Shown: positions 22,537-30,214 of the stretch, piece after piece
Position numbering within the stretch: the first letter of the stretch is position 1
How the letters are laid out: every line of letters begins with the position of its first letter
Assembly (NCBI GenBank): GCA_012838745.1
Contig: DUOS01000069.1
Span: 1 to 43,226 of the forward strand
DNA: 43,226 nucleotides
Source of the DNA: Treponema sp.
GTDB taxonomy: Bacteria > Spirochaetota > Spirochaetia > Treponematales > Treponemataceae
Direction of reading: 5' to 3'
Program-made: the position numbers and the translations under genes
The notes under the pieces: model-generated
Database searches by the model: none
What the model was told of the DNA's origin: nothing
What the model saw: the letters and a program-made list of their open reading frames with translations, nothing else

Positions 22537-24228
22537 TTAGAGTAACTCAGGACCATCAGGTCCTGGGACTACTCGCAGCTGGCAAGGCTCCATACAAACA
22601 CAATCCACAAATTGAGACAAATCAAGTGCAGCTGAAGAAAAAATATCTTCTGGATGCCAAGAAAGATCTAAACTAGTTTCTTCTCCGTCTGCAAGAGCTC
22701 GAGTCCAAGCACCATTAAGGCGCACAATATCTTGGAGAGCAGGAAACAAAAAGCTCTTACCCGAATCTCTGTATTTCTTTTCAAGAAACTTGAGCTGCAG
22801 GCCTTCGGCTTTGTCGTGTTCAATCGTATCCGTGCTATATACTTTTTCAGACACTAAGAAATCAGAAAATTCAGAAAAGAATCGAGACGCTCGTATCTTA
22901 AGTGGATTAAGTGCCGAAAGAAACCACGACACCGCTCGCCCTTGTGTGTAAAAAATATTAACAGCCTGAGCTATCCGTTCTGCAGCATCAATTTCCTTTG
23001 CAGAAAATGAGGGCGTAGATCGAATGAGATAAGGAGGACGAGGATCATGAGAAAGCTCCAGCAATTCTACCCGTTCAAAAAGATCTGTTCCCGGTAATAC
23101 CGCAAGCCGAAATATTTCAAGATTATTGGGATAGAGTTGAATCGCATAGTCAACCGATTTCATAAAGCCTTTGAGGTTATCTCCGGGTAATCCATACATG
23201 AGATCAAAGCCAAAAACGACACCTGCATTATTAAGTAACGTAACACCGGAAGAAAACTTTTTAAAATTTACCGGGCGATTTACTAAGGCAAGTGCCGCTT
23301 CATTAGTGCTTTGCAGCCCAATTTGCAGAGAACAGGGAATATGCGAAAATGCATCAACTAGTTTCTTGTCGAGTAGTTCTGCCCGTATTTCAAAATTAAA
23401 ATAAATATCTGGAGCGGATTTTTTAATCATGTACAACAGAGAAAGCGCTCGTTCTCGAGATGCATTATAGGTGGGATCAAGTACAAATACTCGTTCTATT
23501 CCCTGCTGGGAAAAAAAAGCAAGTTCTTTTTCAAGACGTTCTAAAGGAACAGACCGAACTTTTTTTTCGCCTCGAGATTCATAACAGTAGGCACAAGAAT
23601 AGGGGCAACCTCGCGAAAGCTCCCATAAGGCACCTTTACCATCTCGTACAGCCGTAACTAAATTAAGGGTACCATCGAGCCAAGGAGACGCGAGACTATC
23701 AAGATTTTCTGGTCCGGTTCGTTCTCCAGACACATAGGGCACCCCGGCTATCCATGAAGAAATAAGGGATTGAGAAATACCTTCGCCCTCTCCGCGTATG
23801 CAGTAATCGAAAGAAGGTAATATAGTTTTCCGAGCCGTTATTTCTGGGCCGCCAACAAAGGTAAAAATACCCGGCAAAAGCTTTTTAAGCTCAGCGGCTG
23901 CAGATTCTAGAATACAGCGATTCCATATATACATAGAAAAACCCACTGCAAATGATGCGGGTGGAATATTTGAATCAGCAGCTATCTTTGCAAGACGCGC
24001 TGCAATAATGATACCCGCTTGCTCAGGAGAAACCGCCGCAATTTCGGGATCATCTAAGGAAAATGCTTCCAACTGTATTGTGGCAGAACGGGTAATACTG
24101 GGATCATGATTCAATGCACTAACAATACAGGCAGCGCCAAGCGGAACTGCCTGAAAAGAATTATCTGCGTTAAGCGCGGTGATAATTACGAGTCGACTCA
24201 AAGCAGCGGGATTCCTGCTTTTTCGCAT
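22537..24228 (-). CDS. B12-binding-domain radical SAM protein of unknown substrate
   Basis: Protein of 563 aa. Residues about 10-165 resemble a cobalamin-binding Rossmann-like domain (LVIITALNADNSFQAVPLGAACIVSAL, FVGGPEITARKTILPSFDYCIRGEGE), but without a DxHxxG motif for a base-off ligand. The radical SAM core starts at about residue 207 with LSRGCPYSCAYCYES, the CxxxCxxC cluster motif, and continues to about 400 (YGLPGDNLKGFMKSVDY). The last 160 residues resemble DUF4080, often found in such proteins. The first ATG (24228) is inside asnA by 31 bp. A TTG overlapping the asnA stop, about 27 nt later, is an alternative with AGGA ahead of it. It follows asnA on the same strand. The reaction is unknown; methylation or tRNA/thioether modification are possibilities only. 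Confidence 0.82.
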   Translation of the reverse strand: MRKSRNPAALSRLVIITALNADNSFQAVPLGAACIVSALNHDPSITRSATIQLEAFSLDDPEIAAVSPEQAGIIIAARLAKIAADSNIPPASFAVGFSMYIWNRCILESAAAELKKLLPGIFTFVGGPEITARKTILPSFDYCIRGEGEGISQSLISSWIAGVPYVSGERTGPENLDSLASPWLDGTLNLVTAVRDGKGALWELSRGCPYSCAYCYESRGEKKVRSVPLERLEKELAFFSQQGIERVFVLDPTYNASRERALSLLYMIKKSAPDIYFNFEIRAELLDKKLVDAFSHIPCSLQIGLQSTNEAALALVNRPVNFKKFSSGVTLLNNAGVVFGFDLMYGLPGDNLKGFMKSVDYAIQLYPNNLEIFRLAVLPGTDLFERVELLELSHDPRPPYLIRSTPSFSAKEIDAAERIAQAVNIFYTQGRAVSWFLSALNPLKIRASRFFSEFSDFLVSEKVYSTDTIEHDKAEGLQLKFLEKKYRDSGKSFLFPALQDIVRLNGAWTRALADGEETSLDLSWHPEDIFSSAALDLSQFVDCVCMEPCQLRVVPGPDGPELL

Positions 24229-25370: not shown

Positions 25371-26705
25371 ATGTACACCCCACAGATAGAACCAGTGAGC
25401 ACAATCACCCTCCCCGAACCGAAGGTTAATTTTCTTATTCTTCGAGCGTTTAGAAGTATCATGCGCCCTTTTGCACGTTTTCTCAAATTTGCCGAACCGC
25501 AGATTCTTTTCCCCGAACGCATGGTTGATCAGTGGCATGATTTCAACCAAGGCAAAACGCGTCTTTTACTCGGATTTCGCCATGCCTACGGCGACGACCC
25601 ACAGTTGATGGTGTACACCATTCATAAATCTCTGCCAAAGTATGCACGAAAGATACAACGGCCACTGCGCGCGCTCTCTCATGTACACTTTGTTTACGGC
25701 ACAGAAGTTCCACTGTGGTCTGGAAAGTTTGTTCGTTGGGTTTTGCCCAAGGGAGGAGCCCTACCGGTAAATCATGTCCGTATGGATTCTGTTGGAATGG
25801 GGCGTATACGCAAAACACTTCTGAATGGAGATTTTCCTATTGCCTTAGCTCCAGAAGGTCATGTAACCCATAGTAGCGAAACTGTTGACGATCTTGAAAC
25901 AGGCACTGCGAGATTTTGCTTTTGGTGCTTGGAAGATCTTGCAAAACAAAACCGCAATGAAAAAATGATTTTCTTACCGATATCCCTTCATTACCGTTAC
26001 CACGAAAAATCTCGTTACACTCTTTCTAACATGATTGCCCAGATGGAAAAAGAATGTGCGCTAGAAACTCGTCTACAAACAAGCCGAAAAGATCTCCAAA
26101 TTCCGCAACGTTTACAGCGGCTTGGCTCAAAGATTATAGCCCTGCTTGCAGATTTTTATGCTACAGAAGACCATAGTGGCCCAGAAGCTCAAGCCTCCAT
26201 TCTAGAAGCATCGCTGTGTGCATGCGAGCGCATGTATTCCCTCCCCCACGACGGCACGCCAGCTATGCGTATTTACCGAGTTCGGTCATCAGCCTGGGAT
26301 CGTCTGTTCCGCAGTGATCTAACTACGCTTTCTCCTCTAGAAAAAGAACTTGCCGGTCGTCAATCAGGAGAAGCCTGGTATGCGATGCGCCATTTAGAAA
26401 CATCAGGAATTCTTTATCAAGTAAACCTTACAGAAATACCTGAAACCGCATCACTCGAGCATTATATTGAAATTGCAAACAACTTTTACGACCTTATGGA
26501 ACGGCTCAAAGGTGGAACTCTGCGTAACAGACCAAATTTCTTTAAGAAATACCCAATTATTATTCCGGGAAAACCAGTCGTAATGAACGACTTTCTCGAT
26601 CTCTACCGTAAAAACAAAAAAGCCGCCTTCGAAGAGGCGACTGCTTTATTTCGAGAAAGGTACCTAGACTGTATTGCAGAATACCGGAATATCTTTCCGC
26701 TATAA
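25371..26705 (+). CDS. PlsC-like (LPLAT superfamily) acyltransferase
   Basis: Acyltransferase of 444 aa acting on a glycerolipid or similar acceptor. The catalytic HX4D motif is in LLGFRHAYGDDPQ near residue 65. Block III is FPIALAPEGHVTHSSE near 158-173, with the usual PEG for phosphate binding. GTEVPLWSGKFVRWVLPKGGALPV near 105-130 has the pattern of block II. There is no membrane helix. The C-terminal 200 residues, rich in helices and Tyr/Arg, are not recognised. At 444 aa it is almost twice the length of a plain PlsC, so it may be a spirochaete-type or specialised enzyme. Its end overlaps the convergent AmmeMemoRadiSam radical SAM gene by 6 bp. Confidence 0.75.
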   Translation: MYTPQIEPVSTITLPEPKVNFLILRAFRSIMRPFARFLKFAEPQILFPERMVDQWHDFNQGKTRLLLGFRHAYGDDPQLMVYTIHKSLPKYARKIQRPLRALSHVHFVYGTEVPLWSGKFVRWVLPKGGALPVNHVRMDSVGMGRIRKTLLNGDFPIALAPEGHVTHSSETVDDLETGTARFCFWCLEDLAKQNRNEKMIFLPISLHYRYHEKSRYTLSNMIAQMEKECALETRLQTSRKDLQIPQRLQRLGSKIIALLADFYATEDHSGPEAQASILEASLCACERMYSLPHDGTPAMRIYRVRSSAWDRLFRSDLTTLSPLEKELAGRQSGEAWYAMRHLETSGILYQVNLTEIPETASLEHYIEIANNFYDLMERLKGGTLRNRPNFFKKYPIIIPGKPVVMNDFLDLYRKNKKAAFEEATALFRERYLDCIAEYRNIFPL

Positions 26706-27602
26706 TTGAACGTTTCCAGTATACACGTACTCAAGATGCTTACGGGCTATTTCAGCAAGAGAAAACAACTCGTCAATTGAAATTGATGGTGGTTCGCTCA
26801 TATGAAAATCTGGATGATGGCGAGAAAGATGCAAGGGTATATCTGGCCGTATAGCAGCGAGCCAAGAGGAAATAGAATCAACCTCTTTGGGGTCTGAATT
26901 CCATCCAGGAATAATTAAAGTTGTTACTTCAACATGTGTTTCCTGAGCCGATTGGGCTATAGTTTTTTGGACAGGATCAAGACGAGCTCCACAAAGTTTC
27001 TGGTAATAACTGTTAGAAAAAGCTTTAAGATCTATATTCATCGCATCCACGAGTGGTAGAAGCTCGCCAAGGGGCTGGGTATTTATATACCCGTTAGTTA
27101 CCATAACAGCTGCAAGCCCCTCTGCATGAATTAATTCAAAGGTATCTCGAACAAACTCATAATTAATTGTTGGTTCATTGTAGGTAAAGGCAAGACCACA
27201 ATTCCCTCGTGGAACTGCGCTAATAGCCACATCAGTTATTTCGCGCGGACTCATAGGGCGGGGGAACCCATATTTTTCTGTTGACGAAGCAACAGGTGCA
27301 GAAGTTTGAGAAATATGCCAGTTTTGACAAAAAGAGCACGTCATATTACATCCGTAACCACCTGCCGATAGTATGAGCGAGCCCGGCTTAAAACGAGCAA
27401 GTGGCTTTTTTTCTATTGGATCCAAAGAAAGTGCGGAAACGGTTCCATATTGTTCTGCAACAAGTACTCCATCGCGATTAACACGAACCCCACACTTTCC
27501 AGCGCTTCCCGCTGAGATAACACAATAATGCGGACACAACAAACAGCGTACACTCTTATCACTGCCTATCGTTTCCCAAAAATTGGCGTGATGATATCCC
27601 AT
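26700..27602 (-). CDS. amrS: AmmeMemoRadiSam radical SAM protein
   Basis: Radical SAM enzyme of 300 aa. It starts with a cysteine-rich segment CLLCPHYCVISAGSAGKCGVR at about residues 20-40, related to pyruvate-formate-lyase-activase-like proteins. The cluster motif CNMTCSFCQNW lies near 89-99. The block GLAFTYNEPTINYEFVRDT near 143-161, NIDLKAFSNSYYQKLCG near 195 and VTTLIIPGWNSDPKEV near 228 are characteristic of the AmrS family. It is the last of three genes, and its ATG shares one base with the stop of the AMMECR1 gene (TAATG). The trio is conserved across bacteria and archaea; the reaction is not settled to my knowledge. Confidence 0.92.
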   Translation of the reverse strand: MGYHHANFWETIGSDKSVRCLLCPHYCVISAGSAGKCGVRVNRDGVLVAEQYGTVSALSLDPIEKKPLARFKPGSLILSAGGYGCNMTCSFCQNWHISQTSAPVASSTEKYGFPRPMSPREITDVAISAVPRGNCGLAFTYNEPTINYEFVRDTFELIHAEGLAAVMVTNGYINTQPLGELLPLVDAMNIDLKAFSNSYYQKLCGARLDPVQKTIAQSAQETHVEVTTLIIPGWNSDPKEVDSISSWLAAIRPDIPLHLSRHHPDFHMSEPPSISIDELFSLAEIARKHLEYVYTGNVQL

Positions 27603-28126
27603 TATGTGTATCGAGTTACCGTAAAGCGCTGAATCTCGTATTTATCAGTTGATTCAATTCCTCCCTTTCTGCGGGCAATAGCCATTTGATCATACACAGA
27701 CTCAACACCCTCAAGGTCGGGTAACAACAACCCTCGTCGAACACCGCTGGTTATAATAACACCGTATTTTTTAGGATCAAGATCATCTGGAGACTCAATA
27801 GTTTCTGGCTTCGATAGTATATCAACGCTAATTTCTACAGTATCCAATTCATTAGCACGTACCGCATCAAACCGAGGATCCTGTGAACATGCACTAATAG
27901 CATTCGCTACTATTTCTGCAGTAACTGTTTTTTTTGTGGGCAAAATAGTTCCAATACATCCACGTAAAACTCCATGAGCATGTAAAGAAACAAAACATCC
28001 AGCAGGATCATTTTCAAATACCGGTAGTTCTTGTGGAGAAACGACTTTATCATCTCGCAAATATACTTCAATGGCCTTGCGAGCAATACTCACAGGTATG
28101 CTTTCATTTCCTTTATTTTGATTCAT
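27602..28126 (-). CDS. amrA: AMMECR1-domain protein (AmmeMemoRadiSam protein A)
   Basis: Protein of 174 aa made up of one AMMECR1 domain. The hallmark is HAHGVLRGCIGTILP near residues 54-68, with the invariant LRGCIG. ISACSQDPRFDAVRANELDTVEISVDILSKPE and GVIITSGVRRGLLLPDLEGVESVYDQMAIARRKGG follow as in human AMMECR1. I set the start at the ATG ending at 28126, because GGAGG lies 5 nt upstream. The longer reading from 28276 adds 50 residues that overlap Memo and look like noise. It overlaps the Memo gene by 14 bp and the radical SAM gene by 1 bp, indicating tight coupling. Confidence 0.93.
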   Translation of the reverse strand: MNQNKGNESIPVSIARKAIEVYLRDDKVVSPQELPVFENDPAGCFVSLHAHGVLRGCIGTILPTKKTVTAEIVANAISACSQDPRFDAVRANELDTVEISVDILSKPETIESPDDLDPKKYGVIITSGVRRGLLLPDLEGVESVYDQMAIARRKGGIESTDKYEIQRFTVTRYT

Positions 28127-28976
28127 GAGAACCTCCTTCAGGGTATGAATCCAGACCGGCCACACAGTAACCGATCCCGAATGGCGCCTCGTAAGAATAC
28201 AAAGTACAAACAGGGTTTTTAAAAATAGCAGAGAGAATAACAAGCGAAGCGTAGCCGCATTCACCAGCACGCACACGAAGAGCAGTATCGATTGAACGAA
28301 GTGCCGTGATATCTGAGTTTTCTAGCGAATTACATACTTTTTGATCAAAAAGCGCACCCTCAGGAACCACTCCGTAAGGGCTTTCTTTGTTTACTCGATG
28401 AGACATATCACCGCTCGCGATTACACACACAGAGCGATTGCTTTCGCGTGCCGCCTCGGCAATACACTCACCAATGAGTACAAGGGTTTTAGCATCCATA
28501 TTTGGTGAAGAAAGCGCCACAAGAGGTACTTTCGGCAGTTTTTTTTGGAGAAAATACAGAGGAACTAAAACTCCATGATCAAGATTTTGGTCTAAACCCA
28601 TACGGGCTAGTTGAGCTTCAGGGAGTGTTCCTGCAAAAATAGAAGCGCCCTGCAACTGCGAAAAAAGAGCATCTCTGAGAACTGTATCTTGCACCGCTGA
28701 TAGAGTTAACTCTGGCGAACCAAAACGAGCAAAGGATCCGGTAAGTATTGGGGAATCATACATATATAAAAAATCAGAAAATAAAGGGGCATGGGGCGAT
28801 AGTATTATAATCGCCTCGGGCGAGAGTTCTGCTACCATTTCTGCTACATGAATACATGCTGCTCCGGTTTTTCCTGCATCTCGTTCGCGGCCTCTTCCAA
28901 TTTCTGGAATTAGCACTGGCGGGTGTGGCAAGAGGAATCCAGAGCGAACACCTATTCCTTCTTTTTGCCGTGCCAT
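28113..28976 (-). CDS. amrB: Memo-family protein (AmmeMemoRadiSam protein B)
   Basis: Protein of 287 aa with the LigB-like (class III extradiol dioxygenase) fold. SGFLLPHPPVLIPEIGRGRE near residue 11-30 and IILSPHAPLFSDFL near 57-70 supply the first metal-site histidines. VALSSPNMDAKTLVLIGECIAEAA and CVIASGDMSHRVNKESPYG near 155-195 supply the third. In human MEMO1 this site is conserved though dioxygenase activity is not established. I choose the second ATG (28976), because the first, at 28985, overlaps a perfect TATAAT box. The gene heads the operon amrB-amrA-amrS. Confidence 0.9.
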   Translation of the reverse strand: MARQKEGIGVRSGFLLPHPPVLIPEIGRGRERDAGKTGAACIHVAEMVAELSPEAIIILSPHAPLFSDFLYMYDSPILTGSFARFGSPELTLSAVQDTVLRDALFSQLQGASIFAGTLPEAQLARMGLDQNLDHGVLVPLYFLQKKLPKVPLVALSSPNMDAKTLVLIGECIAEAARESNRSVCVIASGDMSHRVNKESPYGVVPEGALFDQKVCNSLENSDITALRSIDTALRVRAGECGYASLVILSAIFKNPVCTLYSYEAPFGIGYCVAGLDSYPEGGSHESK

Positions 28977-28983
28977 ACTAATC

Positions 28984-29011
28984 ATTATAGGGGCAATCTT
29001 CCTATAATCAA
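28984..29011 (-). promoter_or_regulatory. Candidate leaderless promoter of the AmmeMemoRadiSam operon
   Basis: Minus strand: TTGATT (29011-29006), 16 bp, TATAAT (28989-28984), 7 nt, ATG at 28976. The -10 is a perfect match and there is no ribosome site. It decides the start of amrB. Confidence 0.6.
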
Positions 29012-29098: not shown

Positions 29099-30214
29099 AT
29101 GCAACTTTCAGCTGATGTACTCGCACAATTTAATCATCTTGAACGTTCCGGAGCACTAGATACCCTAGATGATCTCCGAAAAGAAAACCGTTCACTAGAA
29201 CGCATAATTACGGATGCGACCTTGCTTGTTTCCTACACAGATGTTGAATCAATGCTCGGGTTTATTATTTCTCAGCTCCTAGATTATTTTATTCCTCGAT
29301 TTTTAGTATTTATTGTCCACCCGCCCCGAGGAAAAGAAATCCGACAGTTTAGCTACCGTAATCTTAAAAAAAGCGACGACACTATTAAAGAAGAATATTA
29401 TGAAATTCTAAAAGATTACTTTGTTAAAAATCAAAACAGCGTTTCCTTTAGCGAGTTAGAAAAAACGCTGAGTGAAGATACTTTTGGCCAAGATTTCAAG
29501 CAGTTTGAACCAGAAATAATTTTCCCCATGTTTGGAATTGGCGGCTTGTATGGAGTAGCAATCCTTGGAAACAAAATTGTTGATCATAAATACACAGAAC
29601 AAGAAAGAAAATATATTGACCAAATGATCCGATTCCTTTCGGTAAGTATGCAAAACGGCCTACACTACGAAAGTTCTATAACTGACCCTAAGACTGGATT
29701 ATATACCCACGACTATTTTATGCATCGTCTCGAAGAAACCATAGCCCACAATCGGCGCCATGGCACACGCTCTGGAATTCTCATGCTTGATGTTGATAAT
29801 TTTAAACGATTTAACGACACATGGGGCCATGTAACTGGAGATGAAGTACTGCTCGGTCTTTCTCGTGAACTTATGAAAACCATACGAGCAGAAGACTGCG
29901 CTGCACGCTTCGGCGGCGAGGAATTTTCTGTTCTTGTGGCAGAATCCACTCCCGAGACTCTCTTTCACGTTGCGGAACGAATACGAAAGGCAATAGAAGG
30001 GATGTGTCTTACCTGTGGAGAGCATAAGCTCTCGGTTACAGTGAGCATTGGAGCGAGAATGGTAGACGGAATGCACGGTATAACGCCCATGATTCATATT
30101 GGAGACGCAGACAAAGCTCTGTATCGCTCTAAAGCTAACGGAAGGAACTGTTCAACTATGTATGTTCAGGGATTGCTTGAACGCGCATTTATTCTTAGAA
30201 ATACCTGCGAATAA
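29099..30214 (+). CDS. Diguanylate cyclase with GAF-like sensor domain
   Basis: Makes cyclic di-GMP; 371 aa, soluble. Residues about 40-185 form a GAF-like sensor (LEIRRFSYRN...IIFPMFGIGGLYGVAILGNKIVDHKYTEQERKYIDQMIRFLSVSMQN). The GGDEF domain starts with DPKTGLYTHDYFMHRLEE near 198 and has DVDNFKRFNDTWGHVTGDEVL near 223-243, then the active-site GGEEF near residue 271. An RAED sequence five residues ahead of GGEEF is a good inhibitory I-site, so product feedback is expected. There are no membrane helices or EAL domain. Ligand of the sensor is unknown. It stands alone, ends 3 nt from the convergent ffh, and has an unusual repeat-rich promoter. Confidence 0.92.
   Translation: MQLSADVLAQFNHLERSGALDTLDDLRKENRSLERIITDATLLVSYTDVESMLGFIISQLLDYFIPRFLVFIVHPPRGKEIRQFSYRNLKKSDDTIKEEYYEILKDYFVKNQNSVSFSELEKTLSEDTFGQDFKQFEPEIIFPMFGIGGLYGVAILGNKIVDHKYTEQERKYIDQMIRFLSVSMQNGLHYESSITDPKTGLYTHDYFMHRLEETIAHNRRHGTRSGILMLDVDNFKRFNDTWGHVTGDEVLLGLSRELMKTIRAEDCAARFGGEEFSVLVAESTPETLFHVAERIRKAIEGMCLTCGEHKLSVTVSIGARMVDGMHGITPMIHIGDADKALYRSKANGRNCSTMYVQGLLERAFILRNTCE

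Follow-up and report, generated by a model that had tools for sequence, protein, structure and literature searches.

An AmmeMemoRadiSam operon in Treponema whose B and A proteins may form an oxygen-independent enzyme unit

The AmmeMemoRadiSam operon of Treponema sp. described here is a genuine operon of the already catalogued kind (TIGR04335-4337). On balance, we favor the view that its B and A proteins are one oxygen-independent Fe(II) enzyme unit in an anaerobic spirochaete and that the radical SAM enzyme (rSAM) acts in the same pathway. The analysis shows the order and overlaps of the genes, their families, residues that do not vary, fusion of B with A on repeated occasions, co-occurrence, and a conserved leaderless start; the B-A complex, the metal, the independence from oxygen, and the order of the steps are inferred. 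The operon lies on contig DUOS01000069.1, and the window, as we call the whole stretch of DNA analyzed, is 43,226 nucleotides long. The original prediction held that the system has no settled function, and this still stands: the open-licence PMC papers to which our search was limited gave no assignment of function.

Layout and family membership of the operon

The three genes all lie on the reverse strand. The gene for protein B (28113..28976) encodes 287 aa from the ATG at 28976, and its product is of the LigB/extradiol-dioxygenase type within the PCAD-Memo superfamily. Protein A (27602..28126) is an AMMECR1-domain protein of 174 aa that carries an LRGCIG motif with an invariant cysteine, C57. 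The rSAM gene (26700..27602) encodes 300 aa with the CxxxCxxC motif at C85/C89/C92 and an extra N-terminal four-cysteine motif, C20/C23/C27/C37. The end of B overlaps the start of A by 14 bp (28113..28126), and A overlaps rSAM by 1 bp in the sequence TAATG. These coordinates, the gene order, and the overlaps agree exactly with the complete set that had been predicted, and all three products score above their NCBIfam cut-offs: rSAM with 267.7 bits against 220 for TIGR04337, A with 128.6 bits against 99 for TIGR04335, and B with 38.2 bits against 26 for TIGR04336, the last in a local match to profile positions 125-237 of 270. TIGR04336 is also matched by 34 of 37 aligned B relatives (E<=0.001). 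The window resembles the known AmmeMemoRadiSam system (TIGR04335/TIGR04336/TIGR04337) in that its adjacent, co-directional genes pass all three models, and it differs in that its B is of the LigB type, which is why the TIGR04336 match is local and low-scoring. Superfamily membership and the three-gene context are shared with the PCAD-Memo superfamily of Burroughs et al. (2019, J Biol Chem 294:10211), which, as described via PMC7159879 and PMC7694686, comprises 15 families and three-gene contexts with AMMECR1 and radical SAM proteins.

Two other frames lie near the operon. The convergent frame at 25371-26705 on the forward strand overlaps the 3' end of rSAM at 26700-26705 and, at E 0.001, had no match in Pfam or NCBIfam. 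The other, at 22537-24228 on the reverse strand, encodes a B12-binding radical SAM protein that falls below every cut-off among the 25 NCBIfam families listed.

Gene starts and the predicted leaderless mRNA of B

The overlaps had been taken to mean that equal amounts of the three proteins are probably made. The genes, however, show three different modes of initiation, as B is predicted to be leaderless, A has a strong SD sequence, GAAGGAGG, ahead of its ATG and within the end of B, and rSAM begins at the TAATG. Equal synthesis is therefore not implied. An SD-led alternative for B, a GTG at about 28949 with AAGGA upstream, was rejected since the nearest congener lacks this GTG and keeps the longer N-terminus (MERQ/MARQ..EGIGV), which backs the start at 28976.

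The proposed leaderless promoter, TTGATT-16-TATAAT-7-ATG, is present as a string, with the two hexamers at 28984..29011 on the reverse strand and the -10 hexamer ending 7 nt before the B ATG. Taken singly, the match is within chance, as the region holds 14 promoter-like sites compared to 14.4 expected in shuffles. The promoter is nevertheless credible because the position of the -10 hexamer is conserved across the genus. All 11 congeneric genomes, among them that of the window, have TATA(A/C)T 6-8 nt before the B ATG, and none of the 11 has an SD-like sequence ahead of B. None of 89 start sites from eleven other nearby genes, A and rSAM being two of these, has this signature, and the divergent GGDEF gene has it in 3 of 11 genomes. 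These findings bear out the earlier proposal, and we predict from the conserved signature that the B mRNA is leaderless, with a start conserved in the genus.

By inspection, four loci outside the genus (L016, L017, L020, and L023) have the same -10 spacing, and the B starts of L013, L015, L018, L019, and L021 look SD-led. In 240 kb of the congener G009, the -10 hexamer is enriched at 6-9 nt before starts (11 matches in 159 long frames). According to published scans, leaderless genes make up 1.8-6.9% in those spirochaetes that have them (PMC3160421). Together, the enrichment and the scans indicate that a leaderless start is nothing unusual in this lineage.

Protein B compared with dioxygenases and human MEMO1

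B scored 95.2 bits against Pfam LigB (PF02900) and 26.5 bits against Pfam Memo (PF01875), the latter narrowly under the gathering cut-off of 27. All 37 aligned B relatives match LigB, and 16 of the 37 match Memo. The solved folds nearest to the AlphaFold model of B (pLDDT 94.3, pTM 0.92) are TK2203 and aminophenol dioxygenases, with TM-scores of 0.72-0.76, and human MEMO1 ranked under about 30 dioxygenase chains. Judged by this predicted model, B is nearer to the extradiol dioxygenases than to human MEMO1 and is not a canonical Memo. TK2203 (5HEE), an extradiol-dioxygenase-like archaeal protein, is the best match of B in both sequence and fold (TM 0.76 by query, 23% identity), but it has no cysteine at the position of C243 of B in the profile alignment. 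For human MEMO1 (3BCZ, 7KQ8), the metal-site cysteine and the D/H pair align with B, whereas the fold is distant (TM 0.54-0.60) and the identity low (11-13%). A canonical Memo elsewhere in the window genome was considered and rejected, as no PF01875 was found in that genome or in seven congeners. The tie to human MEMO1 drawn in the original prediction is thus an indirect one, because B folds closer to the dioxygenases and the window genome has no Pfam Memo.

The numbering of B residues follows the 290-aa frame beginning at 28985. In the alignment of B, C243, D193, and H196 are each present in 66/66 rows, H65 in 65/66 (one gap), H137 in 64/66, and H21 in 63/66. A profile alignment (hhalign probability 98.1) with eight canonical spirochaetal Memos places C243 on their ACG cysteine, a residue that lines up with the CG of human MEMO1. 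Through His/His/Cys, MEMO1 binds both Fe(II) and Cu(I), and it alters iron homeostasis; the iron is bound by H49, H81, and C244, and the C244S change abolishes binding (PMC11081632). C243 of B aligns with the metal ligand C244, and the putative site would be His21/His65/Cys243. H21 and H65 appear to correspond by motif to H12 and H61 of LigB, through the LigB-MEMO1 equivalence given in PMC11081632. The idea of a metal site in B is thereby strengthened, with the conserved H21 and H65 and the invariant C243 as its putative ligands. The third ligand could also be Glu, because E242, next to C243, is present in 58/66 rows and is aligned by HMMER near the position of the dioxygenase Glu ligand. With standard substrates, dioxygenase activity was not seen for human MEMO1 (PMC11081632), so the site in B could serve metal handling, not catalysis.

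B-A fusion and co-occurrence with rSAM

B and A form one fused frame in three congeners (L006, L008, and L011) and in the majority of the Bacillota relatives, and 46 of the 65 aligned B-A rows are fused. The tree of these 65 rows, in which the genus is a starred clade, contains 10 changes between fused and separate states, and at least 7 of them are forced by starred branches. The predicted model of the fusion (mean pLDDT 92.8, pTM 0.83) suggests that the B and A domains pack in a fixed way. In this tree, the fusions L021, L019, L013, and L015, which belong to other genera within the family, branch among Bacillota, suggesting horizontal transfer, with several of the forks weakly supported.

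Of 198 Spirochaetota genomes, 119 hold rSAM, AMMECR1, or both: 105 have the two together, 4 have rSAM singly, and 10 have AMMECR1 singly. The compared genomes are drafts, and the association (Fisher p 1.7e-38), taken from counts made without phylogeny correction, ignores shared descent. In genus g3, five genomes have all three genes and seven have none. Of 80 loci fetched by AMMECR1 similarity, 48 carry rSAM, and 49 of 50 rSAM copies are on the same strand. The genes can also be apart. The B-A fusion and rSAM are about 50 kb from each other in G025 (g15), and four small draft genomes of Erysipelotrichaceae/Bacilli type (L035, L071, L073, and L104) have the fusion and no rSAM above cut-off genome-wide, suggesting that rSAM is not always needed. 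Solitary AMMECR1 loci were rejected as a sign of separation, since 17 of the 24 genomes tested have an rSAM above cut-off and 17 have a canonical Memo.

One spirochaete genome, G174, apparently holds two versions of the system. A canonical Memo-AMMECR1 pair is found on G174:C37 (L137), and about 8 kb off, a 512-aa AMMECR1-containing frame adjoins rSAM (G174:C37:106319-107977).

A possible pathway and its alternatives

The window genome and five congeners have a pyruvate-ferredoxin oxidoreductase (PFOR) domain, and no haem-copper oxidase was found in these six, which leaves room for other oxygen use; the genus looks anaerobic. AMMECR1 is a listed anaerobe-marking family, with 3.38% of aerobes and 50.66% of anaerobes having it (PMC13386939), and the AmmeMemoRadiSam kind is found mostly in oxygen-avoiding microbes. 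In the pathway that we favor, rSAM would make or prime a product by radical chemistry, and it is plausible that this product is then passed to B. B and A would form a two-domain enzyme unit, presumably as a complex, in which B would hold a mononuclear site of two His and one Cys for Fe(II) or another metal. AMMECR1 would pack against B and supply either binding or a reactive cysteine (LRGCIG). The B-A unit would act after rSAM and work without O2, so it would not be an ordinary ring-opening dioxygenase despite its fold. A more specific version is possible and is put forward tentatively: B-A would use the extradiol-dioxygenase fold and the His/His/Cys site for a new, O2-free reaction on the rSAM product, with human MEMO1 as a distant relative.

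If true, an oxygen-independent B-A unit would be a case of anaerobic chemistry carried out by a fold known for O2 chemistry. MEMO1 and AMMECR1 are also human genes with unsettled basic biochemistry, and relatives of them are widespread in microbes, anaerobes above all. This operon and, most of all, the B-A fusions found in nature and the genomes with B-A only show that B belongs with A and that rSAM is separable, which reduces the choice of proteins to purify and of purification conditions (anaerobic, Fe(II)). As for the substrate, Burroughs and colleagues reportedly suggested in 2019 a base or isoprenoid compound or modification. The archaeal Memo MJ0403, encoded in a mevalonate operon, was tried in vitro as an MVAP decarboxylase and no activity was seen (PMC3857490); we rejected that role.

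Another explanation gives B-A a role in the binding and delivery of Fe(II) or Cu(I) in place of catalysis, with rSAM as a client or as a partner in the same response. The retained cysteine of B and the metal binding and iron effects of MEMO1 (PMC11081632) agree with this. We consider it rather unlikely: the fold of B resembles that of active extradiol dioxygenases more than that of MEMO1, D193, H196, and H137 are conserved in addition to its presumed ligands, and metal transporter or chaperone genes do not recur near the loci. The fold could also mean that B cleaves rings with O2, as extradiol dioxygenases ordinarily do, and serves aromatic breakdown, in line with the LigB match and the likeness to TK2203 and the aminophenol dioxygenases. 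This seems very unlikely in view of the invariant cysteine beside the usual Glu position, the combination of PFOR with no haem-copper oxidase in the genus, and the tendency of AMMECR1 to mark anaerobes (PMC13386939), and aromatic-pathway genes do not recur in the neighborhoods.

It is also conceivable that the three genes share nothing but a transcript and function independently. Their distance in G025 and the B-A fusions with no recognized rSAM would fit, but the recurrent B-A fusion, the strong association of rSAM with AMMECR1, and the all-or-none pattern in genus g3 make separate action improbable. Finally, rSAM could be the activase of a glycyl-radical enzyme, with B-A acting on the product of that enzyme, since pyruvate formate-lyase activating enzyme is the best sequence match of the rSAM core among solved structures. 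Unlike that enzyme, rSAM has the extra N-terminal four-cysteine motif, and it passes TIGR04337 and lies far under the activase cut-offs. The window genome (G000), four congeners, and the two g15 genomes, all bearers of operon genes, yielded no glycyl-radical domain, whereas glycyl-radical enzymes are present in 7/7 operon-lacking g3 genomes. Their absence from five operon-bearing g1 genomes and their presence in the seven without the operon contradict the activase role, which we rejected as scarcely credible.

Neighborhood of the operon

The original prediction that the operon has no other partner holds in the window and across phyla but not throughout the genus. In four congeners, an FHA gene directly follows rSAM on the same strand (L157:11069-11413, L163:3394-3771, L164:11163-11540, and L165:6740-7120), and in three of them (L157, L163, and L164) a Ser/Thr kinase lies further on past the FHA gene, these identities having been checked with Pfam in L164 only. 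The window has neither gene after rSAM. Among the 80 loci fetched by AMMECR1 similarity, an extra partner conserved across phyla was rejected since the neighbors are clade-specific, such as, in 15 loci, a polyprenyl-synthetase-like gene next to a solitary AMMECR1 and, in Chloroflexi, RarA-like genes (both named by inspection). The suggestion that the three genes may be enough is not supported, and with loci continued by FHA in four congeners and B-A with no recognized rSAM elsewhere, the number of genes in the system is not fixed at three.

The malic-ndk-gpsA-ffh-GGDEF-operon-asnA block is shared within the genus and not outside it, so the GGDEF neighbor may be simple synteny. This neighbor is a divergent diguanylate cyclase gene at 29099-30214 on the forward strand that adjoins the operon and has its own TATAAT 8 nt before the ATG.
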